Assembly: GCF_006016075.1 (NCBI RefSeq)
Contig: NZ_CP040093.1
Span: 1 to 64,000, forward strand
DNA length: 64,000 nucleotides
Origin: Caloramator sp. E03
GTDB taxonomy: Bacteria > Bacillota > Clostridia > Clostridiales > Caloramatoraceae
Reading direction: 5' to 3'
The position numbers were made by a program, and so were the translations under genes. A model generated the notes under the pieces. It had not been told where the DNA came from. It was given only the letters and a program-made list of their open reading frames with translations, and did no database searches. Below, in pieces: positions 42,188 to 56,298 of the stretch (position 1 is its first letter; each line of letters opens with the position of its first letter).

Positions 42188-43250
42188 AAGATATTATATT
42201 ATACCTATTTTTGTCCCACATTTAGGATGCCCACATGATTGTATATTTTGCAACCAAAAAAAAATAACTGGGAATACAAAAGAAGTAACTAAAAGTGATG
42301 TTGAAAAGACTATAGCTCAATATCTTAGTACTATTGATAGAAAAAATTCTTTTGTTGAGATTTCTTTTTTTGGAGGAAGCTTTACTGGAATACCGTTAGA
42401 TTATCAAAATGAACTTTTAAGTGTAGCCAAAGCTGCACTTGATGATGGCAAAATAGATGATATAAGGCTCTCTACAAGGCCAGATTACATTAATGAATAC
42501 ATCCTTCAAAATCTTAAAAGATTTGGCGTTGGTGTTATTGAACTTGGAGTTCAGTCTATGGATGATGAAGTACTTAAAATGGCAGAAAGAGGTCACACTT
42601 CAAACGATGTAATTAAATCAAGTAATTTGATAAAGAAATTTGGTTTTAAGTTAGGACATCAAATGATGATTGGACTACCTAATGATAATATTGAAAAAGA
42701 TATCTTTACTGCAAATGAGATAATAAAGTTAAAACCTGATTTTGTAAGGATATATCCAGCGTTAGTAATAAAAGGTACTGAGTTGGAGAGTTTATATTTA
42801 AAAGGGTTATATACCCCCCTAAGTGTAGAAGAAGCAGTAGAGATTTGCAAAAAAATATATATTTTATTTGTAAAGAATGACATACAAATAATACGTATCG
42901 GGCTTCAAAGGTCTGAAGAGATAAACATGGATAATGATGTAATTGCAGGGCCTTTCCATCCAGCATTTAGAGAGCTCGTGGAATCCTCAATATACATGTC
43001 AATTATTGATTACACAATACAAAAGTATTTTAACCTAGAAAATAATATTTTTATAAATATAAATCCTAAGGAGATTTCTAAACTATTAGCAGATAAGAAA
43101 AAATATTTTAATATTTTAAAGTTATCTTATTCTACAAAACAAATAAAAATATGCCAAGATAATTCAATTGATAGATATGAAATAGCTATTAGTGATGGCA
43201 GATTTACTAAAAAAATGTCAATTAATGAATATATAAAATTATCTATTTAA
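42180..43250 (+). CDS. Radical SAM protein, Elp3-like without acetyltransferase domain
   Basis: 356 residues. The 4Fe-4S motif is GCPHDCIFCNQKKITG (CxxxCxxC) near residue 20. It also has FFGGSFTGIP, LGVQSMDDEVLKMAERGH and GHQMMIGLPND, the radical SAM core shared with Elp3 and HemN-like proteins. The C-terminal ~100 residues are not a GNAT acetyltransferase, so tRNA carboxymethylation of the Elp3 type is unlikely as such. Starts at TTG within rnc. Clostridia often carry this gene between rnc and smc; its substrate is unknown. Confidence 0.85.
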   Translation: MNKRYYIIPIFVPHLGCPHDCIFCNQKKITGNTKEVTKSDVEKTIAQYLSTIDRKNSFVEISFFGGSFTGIPLDYQNELLSVAKAALDDGKIDDIRLSTRPDYINEYILQNLKRFGVGVIELGVQSMDDEVLKMAERGHTSNDVIKSSNLIKKFGFKLGHQMMIGLPNDNIEKDIFTANEIIKLKPDFVRIYPALVIKGTELESLYLKGLYTPLSVEEAVEICKKIYILFVKNDIQIIRIGLQRSEEINMDNDVIAGPFHPAFRELVESSIYMSIIDYTIQKYFNLENNIFININPKEISKLLADKKKYFNILKLSYSTKQIKICQDNSIDRYEIAISDGRFTKKMSINEYIKLSI

Positions 43251-43323
43251 AGAAGGATTTTCCTCTTTCTTATAGAATTATTAATAAACAATATTTACTA
43301 TATATTTGAAGGAGGAATTATAG

Positions 43324-43584
43324 ATGGAAGTACTAAAAGTATCTGCTCAATCACAACCAAAAGCAGTTGCAGGAGCACTTGCTGCCGTTTTAAGAGAAAA
43401 AGCATCAGCTGAAGTACAGGCTGTTGGTGCAGGTGCTGTAAATCAAGCCGTTAAAGCAATAGCAATTACAAGAGGATTTGTTGCTCCTAATGGAATTGAT
43501 CTTGTAGTTATTCCGGCCTTTTCAGAAATTGAAATAGAAGGTGAAGAAAGAACAGCGATAAAGTTTATAGTTCAACCAAGATAG
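43324..43584 (+). CDS. spoVS: Stage V sporulation protein S
   Basis: 86 residues. Starts MEVLKVSAQSQPKAVAGALA and includes EVQAVGAGAVNQAVKAIAI, an Alba-like fold. It is needed for coat assembly and late sporulation in Bacillus. GAAGGAGG precedes the ATG. In Bacillus it lies elsewhere. The stop codon is in the stem of its terminator. Confidence 0.96.
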   Translation: MEVLKVSAQSQPKAVAGALAAVLREKASAEVQAVGAGAVNQAVKAIAITRGFVAPNGIDLVVIPAFSEIEIEGEERTAIKFIVQPR

Positions 43585-43610
43585 GTCTATAAGGCCTATC
43601 TTATTTTATA
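43578..43610 (+). terminator. Terminator of spoVS
   Basis: AAGATAGGTCT (43578-43588) pairs with AGGCCTATCTT (43592-43602) with one wobble and a 3-base loop. ATTTTATATTTTG follows. Confidence 0.75.
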
Positions 43611-43650
43611 TTTTGTTTTTATCCTTAAGTTTTTGCTATAAAATGAAAAG

Positions 43651-43679
43651 TTGACAATAGATTATATTAATTTTAAAAT
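43651..43679 (+). promoter_or_regulatory. Strong promoter upstream of smc
   Basis: TTGACA (43651-43656) and TAAAAT (43674-43679) with 17 bases between them. The predicted transcript would start near 43686, only a few bases before a strong terminator. Confidence 0.7.
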
Positions 43680-43692
43680 TAAAATAGCTTTA

Positions 43693-43728
43693 AAGGGATT
43701 TATCCGCCCGGGTAAGTCCCTTTTTAAA
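43693..43728 (+). terminator. Strong terminator between the smc promoter and smc
   Basis: AAGGGATTTATCCG (43693-43706) pairs with CGGGTAAGTCCCTT (43709-43722) with two G-T wobbles, followed by T-rich sequence. It lies 14 bases after the -10 box of the promoter above, so most transcripts may end as ~40-nt RNAs unless there is read-through. Confidence 0.8.
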
Positions 43729-43759
43729 TAAATCCTATTAGATAAAAAGAGGTGTTATT

Positions 43760-46700
43760 TTGTATTTAAAAAGGCTGGAAATTAAGGGATTTAAATCTTT
43801 TGCTGATAGAGTTGATTTAGAATTTGGAAAGGGTATAACAGCAATTGTTGGGCCTAATGGTTCAGGTAAAAGCAATATATATGATTGTATCAAATGGGTT
43901 CTAGGAGAGCAGAGTGCCAAAACTTTACGAGGCTCAAAAATGGAGGATGTAATATTTGCTGGAACTGAGAATAGAAAGGGCCTTGGATGTGCTGAAGTAT
44001 CTCTAACAATAGATAATTCAAATAAAATATTACCTTATGACTATTCAGAAATAACTGTTACAAGAAGACTCTTCAAGTCTGGTGAAAGTGAATACTTAAT
44101 AAATAACACCCAATGTAGGCTTAAAGATATTACGGAGCTTTTTATGGATACCGGAATCGGAACTGATGGATATTCATTAATCGGCCAAGGTAAAATTGAA
44201 GAGATATTAAGTTCAAAATCTGAGGATAGAAGAATGCTTTTTGAAGAGGCTGCAGGTATTGTAAAATACAAAACAAGAAAGTTAGAAGCTGAGAAAAAAC
44301 TTGAAAGTACAAGACTTAACTTAGTTAGAATTTTAGATATAATAAATAATCTTGAGGAACAAATAGAACCGTTAAAGCATCAGTCGATAAAAGCTAAAAA
44401 GTTTTTAGTTTTAAGAGAAGAATTAAAAGAGCTTGACATAAATGTATTATTACACAGTTATGAAAGCTCAAAAAATAAGCTTAATGATTATTTATTAGAT
44501 ATACAAAACCTTGAAAGTAGTAAAAATGATTTAGAAATAAAAAAGAAAGAAAAGTTAAAGTTAATTGAAAGCTATAAGGAAAAATTATATGAAATAGAAA
44601 AGGACTTTGAAATAAAAAACAATGAAAGAATTGCACTTGAAAAAAAATATGAATCTCTCTTAGGAAATTTAAGCCTTTTAGATGAAAGGAAGAATAATTT
44701 AATACATGAAAAAGAAAGATTGATTAAAGAACAAGAAGAAGAAAAAGGAAATGCACAGAATCTAAATAAAGAACATGAGCTGATTTGTATTAAAAGATCT
44801 GAAGTAAATAAGGAAGTTTTAAAAATTAAATCAGAGATTGAAATGTTAGAAGAAGAATATAATGCGATAAACAATAAATGCAACGAATACGAAGCTTTAT
44901 TAGAAAGAAAAAAAGGGGATTTGCTTCAGGTAATTAAAGATATATCTGATATAAATAATAAAATAAATTCATCAGCAATAATGCTTGATAACCTTAAGAA
45001 TAGAAAAAATCAGTTAAATAGAGATTTAGAATTAAGGAATAATAAAATAAGTGAATTAAATATTGAAGTTGAAAAAATATTAAAATTTATAGAAAGCTAT
45101 AATAACGATTTAAAAATAATAAAACAAGAAGCTTTAGATATAACAAATTATATAAAATTATTGGAAAGTAAAGAAGAAAACCTTAATAAACAAAGCAAAA
45201 TTTGTTTTGAAAACTTAAAGACTTATGAAGCAAAGTATAAAACTCTTTTAGATATGGATAAGGATATGGAAGGTTTTAATAGGGCAGTAAAATCCATAAT
45301 CAAAAATTATTTAGATAAATCTAGGGTATTTGGTACTGTAAGTGATTTAATTGAAGTCCCAAAAGGATATGAAACAGCAATTGAAATAGCTTTAGGAGCT
45401 ACAATGCAGAACATAGTTGTTGATAATGAAGATACATCTATTATGCTAATTGATTATTTAAAGAAAAATAATATTGGTAGAGCAACATTCTTACCTTTAT
45501 CTATAATTAAAGGTAAAGAAATCTCAGATACTAAAGAATGGAAAAATAGTTTGGGTTTTTTAGGCATTGCTTCAGATATTGTAAAATATGATTTAAAATT
45601 CAAAAACATAATCACAAACATTTTAGGAAGAGTTTTGGTTTGTGATAACTTAGAAAATGCAAAATCTATAGCAAGAAAAACAAACTATAATTATAGAATT
45701 GTAACCCTTGAAGGGGATGTAGTTAATGTTGGAGGAGCTTTTACAGGTGGAAGCAATACTATAAAGACCACAGGTGTTTTTGCCAGAAAGAATGAAATTG
45801 AAGAACTTAAAAATTTAGTATCACAAGAAAAGGATAGAATAAAAAAGATATCTGAAGAAATATATGCAAATTCACAAGAAGTAATTGAAAAGAAGAATAG
45901 CTTAAATAGTTATAACCAGAAAATTGTTGACATATCTTCAAAGATACAAAATGAAAACCAGAGGCTAGAAATAATAAATAATGAAATTACAAATATAAAA
46001 GAGATAGTAAAAGATATAAAAATTGAAATTGAACAGATTGATATAGAAAATAATAAAAATACTCAAAATGAAACATATAACAAAGCTGTTTTGGATAACT
46101 ATCTTAATAATCAAAAATCTATCGAAAGAGAAATAGAAGATATTCAATTAAATTTTAAAAATATGAAGGAACAAAAGGATGTAATTTCCAAGGATTTAAC
46201 AGCAAAAAAAATTATTTATGCAGAAAGACAAAAAACAGTAGAATTAATAGAAAGCGAAATTGAAAGGTTAGAAAAGGAATTAAAATCTATAAAGCAAAAA
46301 ATAGAATATCAAGCAAATGAAATAAAAAGCATAGACAAAAGAATTATATCAGTAGAAAATGATTTGAAAAAAACTAAAGATGACATTGATAATATAGTTG
46401 TTACTATTGAATTATTTAAGAAAAAATTTAACGATATAGAAGTCAGCAAAAAACAATTGTCAGAACTTATATTAGTAGAAGAAGGTTATTTTTCAGAAAT
46501 CGAAAGGGATATAATGAATATAATAAATTCAATGCATAAGATTGAAATATCAAAATCAAAACTTGAATCTGAAATTGAAATGTATACAAAGAAAATTTGG
46601 GATGATTATGAAATAAGTATTGCACAAGCTATACAATATAAGAAAAGCCTCAAAAGTATAGCAGATGCTAATAGCAGAATAAGTCAATTAAAAAGTGAAA

Positions 46701-47308
46701 TTAAAAGTTTAGGAGAAATTAATATTAATGCTATAGAAGAATATAAAAGAGTAACTGAACGATATGATTTTTTAACAAAGCAAAAAGAGGACCTTGTTAA
46801 AGCTGAGAATTCTTTAATTGACATTATAAATGAAATAGAAAAAAAAATGAAAGAACAATTTGAAGAGAAGTTTGAAATAATAAGAAATAATTTTAATCAA
46901 ACATTTAAAGAATTATTTGGTGGAGGATTTGCAGATTTAAAACTTGAAAGTAATGATATTTTAAACTGTGGTATAGACATAATTGTACAACCACCTGGTA
47001 AAAAGCTTCAAAGTCTTTCGCTATTATCAGGAGGAGAAAGGGGACTTGCAGCAATTGCTCTTTTATTTGCTATACTAAGAATGAAGCCAACACCTTTTTG
47101 TGTTCTTGATGAAATAGAAGCAGCTTTAGATGATGCAAATGTTAGCAGGTTTGCAAAATTTTTAAAGGACTATTCTAAAAAAACACAGTTTATTATAATT
47201 ACTCATAGAAAAGGTTCAATGGCTGCTGCAGACATGCTATATGGTGTTACTATGGAAGAAAAAGGCATATCAAAAGTAATTTCATTAAAGTTAAAAGGAG
47301 GAAACTAA
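43760..47308 (+). CDS. smc: Chromosome partition protein SMC
   Basis: Condensin ATPase. Walker A GPNGSGKSNIYD (about 32-43) and the head end; a long coiled coil; the hinge around 500-660 with VFGTVSDLIEVPKGYETA and the glycine-rich VNVGGAFTGGSN; a second coiled coil; then the signature LLSGGERGLAAIALLFAI and Walker B FCVLDEIEAALDDANV. 1182 residues. TTG start after GAGGTG. ftsY follows one base after the stop. Confidence 0.97.
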   Translation: MYLKRLEIKGFKSFADRVDLEFGKGITAIVGPNGSGKSNIYDCIKWVLGEQSAKTLRGSKMEDVIFAGTENRKGLGCAEVSLTIDNSNKILPYDYSEITVTRRLFKSGESEYLINNTQCRLKDITELFMDTGIGTDGYSLIGQGKIEEILSSKSEDRRMLFEEAAGIVKYKTRKLEAEKKLESTRLNLVRILDIINNLEEQIEPLKHQSIKAKKFLVLREELKELDINVLLHSYESSKNKLNDYLLDIQNLESSKNDLEIKKKEKLKLIESYKEKLYEIEKDFEIKNNERIALEKKYESLLGNLSLLDERKNNLIHEKERLIKEQEEEKGNAQNLNKEHELICIKRSEVNKEVLKIKSEIEMLEEEYNAINNKCNEYEALLERKKGDLLQVIKDISDINNKINSSAIMLDNLKNRKNQLNRDLELRNNKISELNIEVEKILKFIESYNNDLKIIKQEALDITNYIKLLESKEENLNKQSKICFENLKTYEAKYKTLLDMDKDMEGFNRAVKSIIKNYLDKSRVFGTVSDLIEVPKGYETAIEIALGATMQNIVVDNEDTSIMLIDYLKKNNIGRATFLPLSIIKGKEISDTKEWKNSLGFLGIASDIVKYDLKFKNIITNILGRVLVCDNLENAKSIARKTNYNYRIVTLEGDVVNVGGAFTGGSNTIKTTGVFARKNEIEELKNLVSQEKDRIKKISEEIYANSQEVIEKKNSLNSYNQKIVDISSKIQNENQRLEIINNEITNIKEIVKDIKIEIEQIDIENNKNTQNETYNKAVLDNYLNNQKSIEREIEDIQLNFKNMKEQKDVISKDLTAKKIIYAERQKTVELIESEIERLEKELKSIKQKIEYQANEIKSIDKRIISVENDLKKTKDDIDNIVVTIELFKKKFNDIEVSKKQLSELILVEEGYFSEIERDIMNIINSMHKIEISKSKLESEIEMYTKKIWDDYEISIAQAIQYKKSLKSIADANSRISQLKSEIKSLGEININAIEEYKRVTERYDFLTKQKEDLVKAENSLIDIINEIEKKMKEQFEEKFEIIRNNFNQTFKELFGGGFADLKLESNDILNCGIDIIVQPPGKKLQSLSLLSGGERGLAAIALLFAILRMKPTPFCVLDEIEAALDDANVSRFAKFLKDYSKKTQFIIITHRKGSMAAADMLYGVTMEEKGISKVISLKLKGGN

Positions 47309-47309
47309 T

Positions 47310-48215
47310 ATGGGATGGTTTGAAAAGCTAAAGGAAGGATTATCAAAGACAAGGAGCAATATAACAGATAAAATAGAAGAAATATTATCTATTAATAAAA
47401 AAATAGATGAAGAATTATATGAAGAACTTGAAGAAGCTATGATAATGTCAGACATTGGATTTAATACATCATCTAAAATAATTGAAACATTAAGAAAAAA
47501 AGTCAAAGAAAATAAAATATCAGATCCAGATGATGTTAAGAATTTATTAAAGAATATTATAATAGAGATAATAGGTAATGAGTCAAAAGGAATAGTGCCT
47601 GAAAAACTACCTGCAGTTTATCTTATTGTTGGAGTAAATGGAGTAGGTAAAACAACATCTATAGGAAAAATGGCATACTATTTAAAAAATAAAGGACTTA
47701 AAGTGCTTCTTGCTGCAGGGGATACATTTAGAGCAGCTGCAATTGATCAGCTTGAAATTTGGGGGAATAGGGTAGGAGTTGAAGTTATAAAACACCAGGA
47801 AGGCTCAGATCCAGCTTCTGTGATTTTTGATGCGATTCAAGCAGCAAAAGCAAGAAAGGTAGATGTTTTAATATGTGATACTGCAGGAAGGCTTCATAAT
47901 AAGAAAAACCTTATGGAAGAATTAAGAAAAATTAACAAGATAATTGAAAAAGAATATTCTGATGCTTATAAGCAAACGATACTTGTATTAGATGCTACAA
48001 CAGGTCAAAATGCATTAATTCAGGCAAAACAATTTATGGAAGTATCTGATGTAAATGGGATAATTTTGACTAAACTTGATGGCACAGCAAAGGGTGGTAT
48101 TGTAATTGCCGTTAGCGATGAACTTAAAATACCTGTAAAAATGATTGGAGTCGGTGAGGGAATGGATGACCTTCAAGAATTTGATGCAAATGCCTTTGTA
48201 AATGCTATATTATGA
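47310..48215 (+). CDS. ftsY: Signal recognition particle receptor FtsY
   Basis: SRP GTPase receptor. The short N-terminal helix (MGWFEKLKEGLSKTRSN) lacks the long acidic A domain of enteric FtsY. The NG domain has GVNGVGKTTSIGKMA, GDTFRAAAIDQLEIW, DTAGRLHNKKNLMEEL, LTKLDGTAKGG and GVGEGMDDLQEF. 301 residues. RBS AAAAGGAGG in the end of smc. Confidence 0.97.
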   Translation: MGWFEKLKEGLSKTRSNITDKIEEILSINKKIDEELYEELEEAMIMSDIGFNTSSKIIETLRKKVKENKISDPDDVKNLLKNIIIEIIGNESKGIVPEKLPAVYLIVGVNGVGKTTSIGKMAYYLKNKGLKVLLAAGDTFRAAAIDQLEIWGNRVGVEVIKHQEGSDPASVIFDAIQAAKARKVDVLICDTAGRLHNKKNLMEELRKINKIIEKEYSDAYKQTILVLDATTGQNALIQAKQFMEVSDVNGIILTKLDGTAKGGIVIAVSDELKIPVKMIGVGEGMDDLQEFDANAFVNAIL

Positions 48216-48231
48216 TGTTAAGTAAAAATAC

Positions 48232-48260
48232 TTGACAGACAAATTTACTTTTGTTAATAT
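48232..48260 (+). promoter_or_regulatory. Promoter of ylxM-ffh
   Basis: TTGACA (48232-48237) and TAATAT (48255-48260) with a 17-base spacer, right after ftsY. It shows that a TTG start at 48232 for ylxM is unlikely. Confidence 0.65.
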
Positions 48261-48276
48261 AGTAATGGGTGTTAAT

Positions 48277-48612
48277 ATGATAGACAAATTTAGTGAAAAA
48301 GCCCTTCTTCTTGATTTTTATGGAGGTCTTTTAACTGATAAGCAGAGGATGTTTATGTCTTTACACTATGAGGAGGATATGTCTCTTAGTGAGATATCTA
48401 ATGAGTTTGGAGTGTCAAGACAGGCCGTTCATGATATTATAAAAAGAAGTGAAAAGATTCTTGAAGGATATGAAAAAGAACTTGGATTAGTCAATCGATT
48501 TATGATACAAAGAGAAAAATTGAAAAAAGTAAAAACTATACTTGCAGATAAAATAAATGACATAGATATAAAAAAGGCAATGGATATAATTGATGAGCTT
48601 ATAGATGTTTAA
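48277..48612 (+). CDS. ylxM: YlxM-type SRP-associated HTH protein
   Basis: About 111 residues, all helical. EEDMSLSEISNEFGVSRQAVHDIIKR is a sigma-4-like helix-turn-helix. The conserved partner of ffh in Firmicutes, where it modulates the SRP. ATG 48277 lies after GGGTG and downstream of the promoter. Confidence 0.92.
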   Translation: MIDKFSEKALLLDFYGGLLTDKQRMFMSLHYEEDMSLSEISNEFGVSRQAVHDIIKRSEKILEGYEKELGLVNRFMIQREKLKKVKTILADKINDIDIKKAMDIIDELIDV

Positions 48613-48626
48613 TAGGAGGGCTAAAT

Positions 48627-49967
48627 ATGGCTTTTGAGGGGTTAACTTCAAAGCTCCAACAAACTTTTAAAAAATTAAAAAATAAAGGTAAACTAACTGA
48701 AAAAGATGTAAAAGATGCAATGAGAGAAGTAAAGCTTGCATTGCTTGAGGCTGATGTTAATTATAAAGTAGTTAAAGATTTTATAAGTTCTGTAAGTGAA
48801 AGAGCTGTTGGACAGGAGGTTATGGAAAGCCTAACTCCTGCACAGCATGTAATAAAAATAGTTAATGATGAACTAATAAATTTAATGGGGAAAAATGAGA
48901 GTAAGCTTATTATATCACCTATACCTCCAACAGTTATAATGTTTGTTGGGCTCCAAGGTGCTGGTAAAACAACAATGGCAGGAAAACTTGCTTTGAATTT
49001 AAAAAAACAAGGAAGAAAGCCTATGCTTGTTGCAGCTGATATATATAGGCCAGCGGCTATAAAACAGCTGCAAGTTTTAGGATCACAAATAGATGCTCCG
49101 GTTTTTTCCCTTGGAGATAAGGTGAGCCCTGTTGATATTGCTAAAGCTGGTATAGAAAATGCAAAAAGAAATGGATATGATTATGTAATTATTGATACTG
49201 CTGGAAGACTTCATATAGATGAAGAATTGATGAATGAGCTTATTGATATTAAAAATGCTGTAAGTCCTAATGAAATACTTCTTGTTGTTGATGCTATGAC
49301 TGGACAGGATGCAGTAAATGTTGCTGAACAATTTAACAATGCTCTTGATATCACTGGAGTAATACTTACAAAACTCGATGGAGATACAAGAGGAGGAGCA
49401 GCAATATCTGTTAAGGCTGTTACAGGTAAACCTATTAAATTTGTTGGAGTAGGTGAAAAGCTAACAGATATTGAAGTGTTTTATCCTGATAGAATAGCAT
49501 CCCGTATACTTGGAATGGGTGATATATTAAGTTTAATAGAGAAGGCCCAAGAAGCAATTGACGAAAAGAAAGCAATGGATTTACAAAATAAACTTATGCA
49601 TCAGCAGTTTACATTAGAAGATTTTTTAGAGCAGATGCAGCAAATGAAAAAAATGGGTCCTTTGAAAGATATATTAAAAATGATTCCTGGCGTTGATTCG
49701 AGCAAGCTTGAAAACTTAGAAATAGATGAAAAGGAATTAGCTCATACAGAAGCTATAATAAAATCTATGACAAAACAAGAAAGACAAAATCCTTCAATTA
49801 TAAATGCGAGCAGAAAGAAAAGGATTGCTGCTGGCTCAGGAACTTCAATTCAAGAAGTAAATAAGCTATTAAGTGGATTTGAACAGTCTAAAAAAATGAT
49901 GAAACAGTTTGCGGATATGCAAAAAAATGCTAAAAAAGGGAAATTTAAATTTCCTTTCTTTAAATAA
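48627..49967 (+). CDS. ffh: Signal recognition particle protein Ffh
   Basis: Binds signal peptides and 4.5S/6S RNA. The NG domain has GLQGAGKTTMAGKLA, ADIYRPAAIKQLQVL, DTAGRLHIDEELMNEL and LTKLDGDTRGG. The Met-rich M domain runs from about 300 to the end (FLEQMQQMKKMGPLKDI and SGTSIQEVNKLL). 446 residues. RBS AGGAGG. The last codons form a palindrome, GGAAATTT/AAATTTCC, that may add transcription pausing. Confidence 0.97.
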   Translation: MAFEGLTSKLQQTFKKLKNKGKLTEKDVKDAMREVKLALLEADVNYKVVKDFISSVSERAVGQEVMESLTPAQHVIKIVNDELINLMGKNESKLIISPIPPTVIMFVGLQGAGKTTMAGKLALNLKKQGRKPMLVAADIYRPAAIKQLQVLGSQIDAPVFSLGDKVSPVDIAKAGIENAKRNGYDYVIIDTAGRLHIDEELMNELIDIKNAVSPNEILLVVDAMTGQDAVNVAEQFNNALDITGVILTKLDGDTRGGAAISVKAVTGKPIKFVGVGEKLTDIEVFYPDRIASRILGMGDILSLIEKAQEAIDEKKAMDLQNKLMHQQFTLEDFLEQMQQMKKMGPLKDILKMIPGVDSSKLENLEIDEKELAHTEAIIKSMTKQERQNPSIINASRKKRIAAGSGTSIQEVNKLLSGFEQSKKMMKQFADMQKNAKKGKFKFPFFK

Positions 49968-49995
49968 AATCTGACTTATCAAGGAGGTGAAGTAA

Positions 49996-50241
49996 ATGGC
50001 AGTAAAAATAAGATTAAGAAGAATGGGTGCAAAAAAAGCTCCTTTCTACAGAATAGTTGTTGCTGATTCAAGATCACCAAGAGATGGAAAGTTCATTGAA
50101 GAGATTGGTTACTATAATCCAATTGCTGAACCAACAGAAATTAAGGTTGATGCTGAAAAGGCAAAGAAATGGCTATCAAATGGTGCACAGCCATCAGATA
50201 CTGTAAGAAATTTATTAAAAAAAGTAGGTATCATTGAATAA
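49996..50241 (+). CDS. rpsP: Ribosomal protein bS16
   Basis: 81 residues. Starts [20 protein letters not shown], followed by [31 protein letters not shown]. Order rpsP-khpA-rimM-trmD-rplS is the conserved one. Confidence 0.97.
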
Positions 50242-50256
50242 TAGGGGTGCATTGAT

Positions 50257-50484
50257 ATGAAAGAACTTGTAGAACTTATCGCAAAGGCTTTAGTTGATAA
50301 TCCTGAAGAAGTAAAAGTATCAGAGATTGCTGGAGAGCAATCTGTTATAATTGAGCTTAGGGTAGCTCCAGAGGATATGGGTAAAGTTATTGGTAAACAA
50401 GGCAGGATAGCTAAAGCTATTAGGACTGTTGTTAAAGCAGCAGCTACAAAACAGAATAAAAGAGTAGTTGTTGAGATAATATAA
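50257..50484 (+). CDS. khpA: KH-domain RNA-binding protein KhpA
   Basis: 75 residues with the KH motif [19 protein letters not shown]. Partner of KhpB in binding small RNAs and mRNAs, linked to cell-length control in other Firmicutes. AGGGGTG precedes the start. Confidence 0.95.
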
Positions 50485-50490
50485 TTATAA

Positions 50491-50518
50491 AAGAGTTAGG
50501 ATAGCCTAACTCTTCTTT
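50491..50518 (+). terminator. Terminator/attenuator after khpA
   Basis: AAGAGTTAGG (50491-50500) pairs perfectly with CCTAACTCTT (50505-50514), loop ATAG. The T-run is broken (CTTTAAT), so read-through into rimM-trmD is likely. Confidence 0.65.
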
Positions 50519-50538
50519 AATATTAAAAGGGTGATTAA

Positions 50539-51045
50539 ATGAAAGAATATTTAAAGGTAGGACAAATAATAAATACCCATGGAGTTAAAGGAGAAGTTAA
50601 AATATATCCTTTAACTGATGATATAAATCGATTTAAAAAATTAAAGTATGTATTTAGAAAAGTTGATGATGAATATATAAAAGTAGATGTTGAAGGAATA
50701 AAGTATGTAAAGCAATTTCCTATATTAAAGTTATCTAATATAGACACTATGAATGATGCAGAAAAACTGAAAAATGAATATATATATGTAGACAGAGAAA
50801 ATGCCGTAAAGTTACCTGAAGGTGCTTATTTTATTGCTGATCTTATAGGCCTTAGTGTTGTTTCTGATGATAATAAATATTTAGGAAAACTTACAGATGT
50901 ATTTTCTACAGGAAGTAATGACGTATATGAAATAACTGATGATAATGGAAAAAAATATTATATACCAGCTATAAAAGATGTTATAAAGATAATCGATTTA
51001 ATAGAAGGTAAAATGATAATAAATATCATCGAGGGGCTATTATGA
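50539..51045 (+). CDS. rimM: Ribosome maturation factor RimM
   Basis: Needed for 30S maturation around S19. Starts [18 protein letters not shown] (RimM domain); the PRC-barrel includes [18 protein letters not shown]. 168 residues. RBS AAGGGTG. Overlaps trmD by 4 bases (ATGA). Confidence 0.95.
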
Positions 51046-51778
51046 TATTTGATGTATTAACTTTATTTCCAGAGATGTTTGATATATTTAATTATAGCAT
51101 TATTAAACGTGCAAGGGATAATGGGATTATCTCTATAAATGTATATAATATAAGGGACTTTACAAATAATAAGCACAAAAAGGTTGATGACTATCCTTAT
51201 GGTGGGGAGTAGGGATGGTCATGCAGGCAGAACCAATATATAATGCTGTAAGTTTCATAAAAGAAAAATATGGATATAAGCCCTATACAATTTTAATGTC
51301 GCCTAAAGGTGACGTATTTACTCAGGATATATCAAAGGAGCTAAGCACCATAAATCATATTATGTTAATATGTGGCCATTATGAAGGAATTGATGAAAGG
51401 ATAATGCCTCTTATCGATAGAGAAATATCAATTGGAGATTTTATTTTAACTGGTGGAGAAATTGCTTGTATGGCGATAATAGATTCTGTATCAAGGCTTA
51501 TACCTGGAGTCTTATCTTCAAATGAAAGCTTTGAAGATGAATCATTTTACTCAGGGCTTCTTGAATATCCACAGTATACAAGGCCTGAAGTATTTAATGG
51601 TATGAAGGTTCCAGAAGTATTATTATCTGGCCACCATAAAAATATAAAAAAATGGCGAAGGTATGAAGCATTGAAAATTACTTATTTAAGAAGGCCAGAC
51701 CTTTTAAAAAAATTAGAATTATCAAATGACGATAAAAAGATGCTAGAAGAAATAAAAAACAAAGAAAAGAAGAAATAA
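51042..51778 (+). pseudogene. trmD: tRNA (guanine-37-N1)-methyltransferase, frame broken
   Basis: Makes m1G37, which prevents frameshifting in translation. The first frame ([20 protein letters not shown] up to DDYPYGGE) stops at 51210. The -1 frame continues GMVMQAEPIYNAV, ICGHYEGIDERI, IGDFILTGGE and the C-terminal domain. The family sequence across the joint is PYGGGxGMVMQ, so one G is missing in the G4 run at 51204-51207. With it the protein has about 245 residues, normal. There is no slippery heptamer, and trmD is normally essential, so sequence error is likely. ATG 51042 overlaps the rimM stop. Confidence 0.92.
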
Positions 51779-51781
51779 ATG

Positions 51782-51810
51782 TTGTCATATAACCAAATAT
51801 ATGCTAAAAT
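51782..51810 (+). promoter_or_regulatory. Promoter of rplS
   Basis: TTGTCA and TAAAAT with 17 bases between them and a TGC extension before the -10 box; just after trmD. Confidence 0.65.
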
Positions 51811-51817
51811 ACAAGAT

Positions 51818-51870
51818 GTGTATTACGGGCGTTCCTCTGCAGCAGCATGTATGAACGTCTATGAAGAAGG
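51818..51870 (+). promoter_or_regulatory. Putative L19 ribosomal protein leader
   Basis: GGCGTTC (51828-51834) pairs with GAACGTC (51853-51859), with a small CTGCAGCAG hairpin inside. Position between promoter and rplS, small size and conserved-looking loop fit the autoregulatory L19 leader known from Firmicutes. Not checked against a model. Confidence 0.55.
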
Positions 51871-51881
51871 AGGTAGAAGTA

Positions 51882-52229
51882 ATGGATATTATTAGAGCAA
51901 TTGAAGCTGAGCAGATGAAGAAAGACCTTCCAGAATTCAGAGTTGGTGATACAGTAAAAGTTCATGTAAAGGTTAGAGAAGGTAATAGAGAAAGAATTCA
52001 GATTTTTGAAGGGTTAGTAATTAAGAGACAAAATGGTGGATTAAGAGAAACTTTTACTGTAAGAAGGATTGCTTATGGCGTTGGAGTTGAAAGAACATTT
52101 CCAGTTCATTCTCCAATGATTGATAAGATTGAAGTAGTAAGAAAAGGTAAAGTTAGAAGAGCAAAACTTTATTATTTAAGAAAGAAAGTTGGAAAATCTG
52201 CTACAAAGGTAAAAGAAATAATAGAATAA
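51882..52229 (+). CDS. rplS: Ribosomal protein bL19
   Basis: 115 residues. [19 protein letters not shown], then [20 protein letters not shown] and [23 protein letters not shown] 51882 follows AAGGAGGTAGAAGTA; the ATG at 51861 lies before that site and inside the leader. Confidence 0.96.
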
Positions 52230-54500: not shown

Positions 54501-54686
54501 ATGGGAGATGTACAAAGGATTAAAAACCATATTGAAAAGACAAGAAAATATCTTTATGAGTTAATAAAAGTTAAAGGTAATTTAACGGATGAAGAAATTG
54601 TATTAATAAGTCAAGAGCTTGATAAAGCAATAAATGTATATTATAAAGTACAGAAAACTAAATTAGAAGGTTATAGCTACATATAA
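54501..54686 (+). CDS. Spo0E-like aspartyl-phosphate phosphatase
   Basis: 61 residues, two helices. The motif LISQELDKAINVYYK contains the SQELD signature of Spo0E-family phosphatases, which dephosphorylate Spo0A~P and delay sporulation. AGGGGTGATG lies before the ATG. It has a 175-base AT-rich region before it (promoter likely but not clear) and a perfect terminator after it, so it is probably transcribed alone. Confidence 0.85.
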   Translation: MGDVQRIKNHIEKTRKYLYELIKVKGNLTDEEIVLISQELDKAINVYYKVQKTKLEGYSYI

Positions 54687-54724
54687 ACAAAAAAGTACTA
54701 TAGTTTTATAGTACTTTTTTGTTT
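54685..54724 (+). terminator. Terminator of the Spo0E-like gene
   Basis: Arms 54685-54702 and 54707-54724 are perfect 18-base complements with loop GTTT; the right arm contains T6. The arm begins in the stop codon. Confidence 0.9.
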
Positions 54725-54769
54725 ATGCTATTTTTTTATGGAAATAATCATTATATAGGAGTGATGAAA

Positions 54770-56298
54770 ATGTTAAGTAAAACTTATTCAACATCCTATA
54801 TAGGAATAAAAAGTTTTATAATTGAAATAGAAACTGACATACATAACGGACTGCCAGCGTTTAATATGGTTGGACTTCCTGATACAGTAATAAAAGAATC
54901 AAAAGAAAGAGTGCGTTCTGCAATAAAGAATTCTGGATATGAATTCCCAATAGGTAAAATTACTATTAATTTTGCACCTGCAGATGTAAAAAAAGAAGGA
55001 TCATATTATGATTTAGCAGTTGCTATTGGAATTCTAATTAGTAGTGGTAAGATAAATAATGATGATATAAATAATAGTATATTTATTGGAGAACTTTCAC
55101 TAAATGGTGAGGTAAGAAGTGTAAAAGGAATACTTCCTATGGTAATAGAAGCTAAGCGTTCTAATTTTAATAGAGTTTTTATACCCATACAAAACTGTCA
55201 AGAGGTAAAGATAATAGATGGTATTGATATATATGGTGTTTCAACTCTTTTAGAACTCATAGATTTTTTAAATGGAAACATCCAATTAGAAAGAGTAAAA
55301 AGTCAAGAATACCAACAATTTACCATACCAGAATATGAAGTCGATTTTTGTGAAGTTATAGGTCAAAAATTTGCAAAAAGAGCTGTTGAAATTTCAGCTT
55401 CAGGATATCATAATTTGCTTATGATAGGCCCTCCTGGAGGGGAAAAACTATGATTGCTCAGAGAATACCAACTATTCTTCCACAACTTACCTATGAACAG
55501 GCTATTGAAGTTACTAAAATTTATAGCATAGCTGGTATTTTAAAGGATAATAGCAAAATAATATCATGGCCTCCCTTTAGAAGTCCTCATCATACATCAT
55601 CATGTATTTCAATAATTGGAGGAGGAAGCAATGCAATTCCTGGCGAAGTATCTCTTGCACATAATGGAGTTTTATTTCTTGATGAGCTTCCAGAATTTAA
55701 AAGAGATACTCTTGAGGCTCTAAGGCAGCCAATCGAAGATGGAGTTGTCTCAATATCAAGAGTAAAAGGAAAATATATCTACCCGGCAAGATTTTTATTT
55801 ATTGCATCTATGAATCCATGTCCATGTGGATACTACGGTTATCAGCTCAAAGAATGCAGTTGCACCCAAACACAAATAAAAAACTATTTAAGTAAGGTGT
55901 CTGGTCCTTTGCTTGACAGAATTGATATACATATCAATATTGAACCTATAAAGTTTGAAGAAATAAGTAGTAATAAAAAAGAAGAAAAATCAGAAGAAAT
56001 TAGAAAAAGAGTTATTAAGGTTAGGGAAATTCAAAAAATCAGATTTAAAGATGAAGATATAAGTTACAACTCACAAATGAGGACAAAGCATATTAAAAAA
56101 TACTGTAAAATAGACAAAAAAGGAATGAAATTGCTTGAAAATGCATTTAAAACACTATCATTAAGTACAAGGGCATACAATAAAATACTAAAAATATCAA
56201 GAACTATTGCAGATATGGAAGAAAGTGATGAAATAAAAGAAAATCACGTTGCTGAAGCAATACAATATAGAGCCCTTGACAAAAAATACTGGGCTTAA
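54770..56298 (+). pseudogene. comM: ComM/YifB Mg-chelatase-like ATPase, frame broken in Walker A
   Basis: AAA+ helicase for branch migration in natural transformation. The N-terminal domain starts MLSKTYSTSYIGIKSFI and includes AFNMVGLPDTVIKES. The frame stops at 55453, within Walker A (IGPPGGEKL). From 55450 the other frame continues MIAQRIPTILP, FRSPHHTSSCISIIGGG, GVLFLDELPEF (Walker B) and the cysteine cluster MNPCPCGYYG. One more G in the G4 run at 55438-55441 gives GPPGGGKT and about 509 residues, both normal. ATG 54770 has AGGAG upstream. Confidence 0.93.

Follow-up and report, generated by a model that had tools for sequence, protein, structure and literature searches.

What role might a promoter serve that is followed at once by a terminator-like hairpin, directly ahead of smc? 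This arrangement, noticed in a first-pass annotation and confirmed here, is found on the forward strand of the 64,000-nt stretch of Caloramator sp. E03 DNA that was analysed (contig NZ_CP040093.1; hereafter the window). The promoter is of the sigma-A type, TTGACA-17-TAAAAT (43651-43679), with TTGACA at 43651-43656, a 17-nt spacer and TAAAAT at 43674-43679; it agrees with the consensus at 11/12 positions, which bears out its description as near-consensus, and is the top-scoring promoter-like site on both strands within 42500-45000. Promoter-like sites as a class were not enriched in the promoter scan (9 observed vs 13.7 expected from shuffles), and we regard the smc promoter as credible because it is conserved in the family, not because of its frequency in the scan. 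A TTGACA-type promoter stands at the matching place upstream of smc in most family genomes, and the three genomes of genus g7 (G008, G011 and G015) carry a different promoter sequence, which by eye is of the TTGATT-17-TATACT type. As predicted, transcription would be expected to start at 43686, 7 nt 3' of the -10 hexamer, leaving some six unpaired 5' nucleotides (43686-43691) before the stem begins.

The hairpin itself (43692-43723, forward strand) comprises a 5' arm AAAGGGATTTATCC at 43692-43705, the loop GCCC at 43706-43709 and a 3' arm GGGTAAGTCCCTTT at 43710-43723. Its 14-bp length is as first given; the accompanying label 'GC-rich' is inaccurate, the 14 pairs being five G-C, seven A-U and two G-U. 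The predicted folding energy is -19.2 kcal/mol (z -4.1), a stability equalled by none of 200 shuffles, and the same hairpin is retained when the leader is folded through smc codon 13. A T5 run (43721-43725) supplies part of its length to three A-U pairs of the stem and, with the remaining 11-bp core stem, forms an intrinsic-terminator-like element. In 464 kb of the genome (the 64-kb window and 20 other stretches totalling 400 kb) there are 105 promoter-like sites that lie outside ORFs and match at least 10 of the 12 consensus positions, and the pairing of promoter and hairpin is unusual because just two of these 105, one being the smc leader, have so strong a hairpin (-12 kcal/mol or lower) within about 21 nt. 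Two other explanations of the sequence were considered and set aside: the element is not a dispersed repeat, its 26-nt core (≤3 mismatches) being present once in the genome, and a 12-nt complementarity between the 3' arm (43719-43730) and smc codons 2-5 (43763-43774) is not exact in the relatives inspected and was taken as chance.

Considering the gene order, the messenger for smc appears to have no path that avoids this structure. Upstream lies an ORF (43324-43584, forward strand) that we take, as with all the products named in this neighbourhood, to be what its sequence indicates, in this case a spoVS-like gene; it ends in an intrinsic terminator of its own (43578-43602), which separates it from smc and has counterparts at the corresponding place in many relatives. 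Downstream, the Shine-Dalgarno sequence AAGAGGTG of smc (43747-43754) follows the T-run by only 21 nt, which is too short for a promoter and a start, so that smc mRNA must come through the hairpin; a start site 3' of the hairpin is thus unlikely on the sequence. The smc gene (43760-47308, TTG start; a strong match to its N-terminal 191 aa was obtained in 60/60 genomes searched) is the first gene behind the element, and the presumed ftsY, ylxM, ffh, rpsP, KH-protein gene, rimM, trmD region and rplS follow (47310-52229), as judged from ORFs and spacing. All the genes from smc to rplS are on one strand with mostly tight spacing, and it is likely that smc-ftsY-ylxM-ffh-rpsP, with further genes, form one operon behind the element.

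Some other structures were seen in this part of the window. Within the presumed operon, between the KH-protein gene and rimM, there is a terminator-like 10-bp hairpin with a CTTTAATATT tail (50491-50514), and rimM, trmD and rplS may in consequence be expressed less than the preceding genes. Just before rplS, a promoter-like TTGTCA-17-TAAAAT, its -10 hexamer preceded by TG, is followed by a hairpin of -11.9 kcal/mol (51782-51860); rplS could have a separate promoter and an L19 leader here, and a search of 51740-51900 against Rfam at E 1 matched no family. Further on, a very A-T-rich 20-bp stem followed by a T-run (54682-54727) is found just upstream of the gene for a comM-like ATPase, whose frame is apparently split between the overlapping ORFs 54719-55453 and 55450-56298.

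The association of promoter and hairpin is conserved in relatives. Leaders were extracted from both strands of 17 family genomes, all of which have smc, and a homologous hairpin lies between a promoter-like element and smc in ten of them (G000, G001, G002, G003, G006, G007, G008, G009, G011 and G015), with weaker stem stability in G006 and G003 (z about -1.3). Since the other 7/17 have no homologous hairpin, the element must be dispensable, and this is the point in favour of its being a chance structure or a relic, an old intergenic terminator that persists in the leader but has lost its role. We hold that explanation to be scarcely probable, given that on both deep branches of the family the stem has survived through substitutions that maintain its pairs. 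In the SMC tree the carriers are placed on both of these branches, which suggests an old element that was later lost or replaced in some lineages. At the same place G014 has an unrelated hairpin of 16-17 bp and G012 one of 10 bp, each with a weak or absent U-run, and no strong hairpin was found in the smc leaders of G004, G010, G016, G005 and G013. In three genomes of genus g3 (G010, G004 and G016), which lack the hairpin, the smc leaders have in common a GGACACCA element with a T-rich tract after it; the element is located upstream of smc in L010 and L012 (1380-1500) and, for G016, in L038. A further individual feature was seen in G007 (L036), where a short ORF of about 12 codons, from TTG to TAA and behind a GGAG motif, spans the hairpin; by eye it has no counterpart among the other leaders inspected.

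A covariance model of the element returned the smc leader as the top match in each of the ten carriers, with E values of 9e-7 to 9e-12. Across the order, matches with E ≤ 1e-4 were obtained in 25/147 genomes, ten of these in the family, and nearly all of the strongest were the ten family smc leaders; the two strongest outside the family were inspected and both lie near gene ends, and seven sites giving weaker matches within the family looked on inspection mostly like ordinary terminators near gene ends. One model-like hairpin, in G010 (L156 224-265, E 3e-5), is located before another ORF or at its beginning, and may be a further leader of this type. In other Clostridia and Bacilli, 94 smc loci yielded no significant match to the model, and among 87 smc leaders from these groups 15 have a terminator-like hairpin, none with a promoter-like site shortly before it.

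These searches also bear on the proposal that the region encodes a dedicated small RNA of about 43 nt (~40 nt in the first-pass annotation) ended by the hairpin, with smc expressed via readthrough. The promoter and the terminator-like hairpin do enclose a very short RNA, and its 5' arm GGGATTTATCC is better conserved than the 3' arm. However, nearly every residue of such an RNA is in the stem, as had been noted from the outset, the loop varies between genera, and the strong covariance-model matches are always ahead of smc. Searches of the full window, and of the element itself at a relaxed threshold, against Rfam 15 gave no credible match and none reaching, or near, the gathering score. A small RNA consequently finds no positive support here, and we consider it very unlikely.

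Whether the conserved feature is an RNA stem or a DNA palindrome can be judged from the pattern of substitutions. In the alignment the 5' arm is nearly fixed and the 3' arm variable; 96.4% of the cells are paired, compared with at most 61% in slid versions. Shuffling the 3' letters within pairs still gives 95.3% paired, so that the make-up of the columns already carries most of the pairing. Covariation is mostly one-sided, with one pair changed on both sides; the covariation score was reached by 31/500 shuffles of the 3' letters, and these measures are only slightly raised. Departures from the consensus were counted as independent events per lineage in G000, G006, G007 and G011, with G003 (poor alignment) and G009 (altered loop end) omitted; all seven of the stem substitutions scored retain a standard pair, for which the probability by chance is 0.00005 to 0.0035 for transition shares of one third to 0.8. 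Even without strong covariation, this pattern speaks more for a folded RNA than for a DNA palindrome. We therefore find little reason to think that the inverted repeat is an operator binding a repressor just past the start, a role that we judge most improbable: its location directly downstream of the promoter would suit such a function, and the arms are perfectly palindromic in G011, G015 and G009, but the arm changes in g1, G006 and G007 keep G-U pairs in the RNA and break the symmetry of the DNA.

In addition to the stem, the U-run has the character expected of an intrinsic terminator. We used a d score that adds the hairpin energy per nucleotide and a weighted T-tail and is maximised over the stem ends; on this scale, which is calibrated on E. 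coli, the smc-leader element reaches 24.8, in line with its first description as a strong terminator, vs 13.2 for the adjoining spoVS terminator. A simple terminator scan of the window did not list this hairpin. The score is above zero in 10/10 carriers, clearly so in six (G000 24.8, G001 20.7, G002 24.6, G006 17.4, G007 25.0 and G009 26.3) and weakly in G003 (5.8) and genus g7 (5.1, 7.9 and 6.5), where the U-run is T3 only; the spoVS-end terminators of the same genomes score from 13 to 33. Ranked among the 15-mers of its leader, the U-run falls within the top 0.1-3.2% in 7/10 genomes and at 11% in the three g7 genomes, and in those seven, by eye, it has more residues than the A-run that could pair with it.

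The principal rival to termination is that the structure acts as a 5'-terminal stem-loop that would stabilize smc mRNA by burying its 5' end and so keeping an RppH-type pyrophosphohydrolase and the 5' exonuclease RNase J from initiating decay, with the T-run incidental; a review covers both stabilizing 5' structures and the preference of RppH for single-stranded RNA (PMC3997798). Its position is well suited to this, since in 8/10 genomes the stem starts 12-20 nt past the -10 hexamer and thus about 5-13 nt from the inferred start, and the replacement hairpins in G014, with its poor U-run, and G012 could be understood in the same way. Yet a stabilizing role leaves unexplained why a high-ranking U-run is kept in seven genomes of several genera, and why it exceeds the A-run with which it could pair; moreover, the hairpin of G011 and G015 lies about 45-55 nt past the -10 hexamer, distant from the 5' end. 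Stabilization of the mRNA is, in our estimation, possible though doubtful.

On balance we favour, with some reserve, a short leaky promoter-proximal terminator that would limit the likely smc-ftsY-ylxM-ffh-rpsP operon. From the sigma-A promoter, RNA polymerase would start near 43686, the opening 38 nt of the RNA would fold into the hairpin with the U-run next, and part of the polymerases would release an RNA of about 43-46 nt at the U-run, while the remaining polymerases would read through to produce the smc-ftsY-ylxM-ffh-rpsP mRNA; here we infer the termination, its efficiency and its partial nature. The throttle may be fixed, or responsive to NusA/NusG or to an RNA-binding protein. We identified no antiterminator, ligand domain or protein site in the smc leader and, given that it also has no conserved alternative fold or leader peptide, a fixed or factor-tuned throttle is likelier than a classical sensor; with about 6 nt from start to stem in Caloramator sp. 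E03, there is indeed no room for antitermination by a leader peptide, as was pointed out at first. Of the two roles proposed in the first-pass annotation it is thus the attenuator that gains support, from the terminator score, from conservation in ten genomes and from there being no other place for an smc promoter; that it would set SMC levels stands, not for SMC alone, since the probable operon would bring in the SRP and possibly ribosome genes too.

A route to tuning without a sensor in the leader may be offered by dependence on NusA or NusG, as B. subtilis terminators can show when their stem base is made of A-U or G-U pairs and their U-run is interrupted (PMC8060035). We can also imagine, as a rather improbable extension, that the first ~40 nt are the whole of a family-specific device in which NusA, NusG or an RNA-binding protein tunes readthrough and so couples SMC to the expression of SRP and ribosome genes. 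Within a literature search made largely without subscription papers, we found no paper linking smc, spoVS and a 5' UTR terminator and no report of smc regulation in this bacterial group, and the sole match for smc, ftsY and ffh together with premature termination deals with SRP dynamics. If termination does take place, the element would act as a conserved brake right where an operon begins that probably joins chromosome organisation, protein targeting and ribosome genes, and would be a compact natural test case both for intrinsic terminators no more than about 45 nt from a promoter and for readthrough as the means of setting the level of an essential operon.

Finally, considering known systems, the smc-leader hairpin is a new, family-specific example of an ordinary, known kind of element and probably serves as a brake built into the leader. 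The trp leader, the T-box and PyrR systems are classical leader attenuators or riboswitches whose terminator comes ahead of the first gene; the putative terminator of the smc element is likewise placed in the leader, and the element differs from them in having no antiterminator, leader peptide, ligand domain or Rfam match at the gathering score. Constitutive, unregulated attenuators also exist; one precedes rpoBC within the rplJL-rpoBC operon of E. coli. Similar to that attenuator, an intrinsic-terminator-like element precedes essential genes, would allow partial passage and has no sensor domain; unlike it, the smc element, known from its sequence, lies not between genes of an operon but at the head of the predicted transcript, some 6 nt past the start, with no structure before it. 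With the NusA- and NusG-dependent terminators of B. subtilis (PMC8060035) it has in common, as a likeness of sequence, a stem closed at its base by A-U pairs and a U-run that is short or interrupted. With the stem-loops of papA in E. coli and aprE in B. subtilis, the aprE leader being cited as a stabilizing 5' structure (PMC3997798, PMC7509114), it shares a stable stem, few unpaired 5' nucleotides and a long mRNA, but it is set apart from these by a U-run right after the stem in most members and by the two genomes in which the stem is not near the 5' end.
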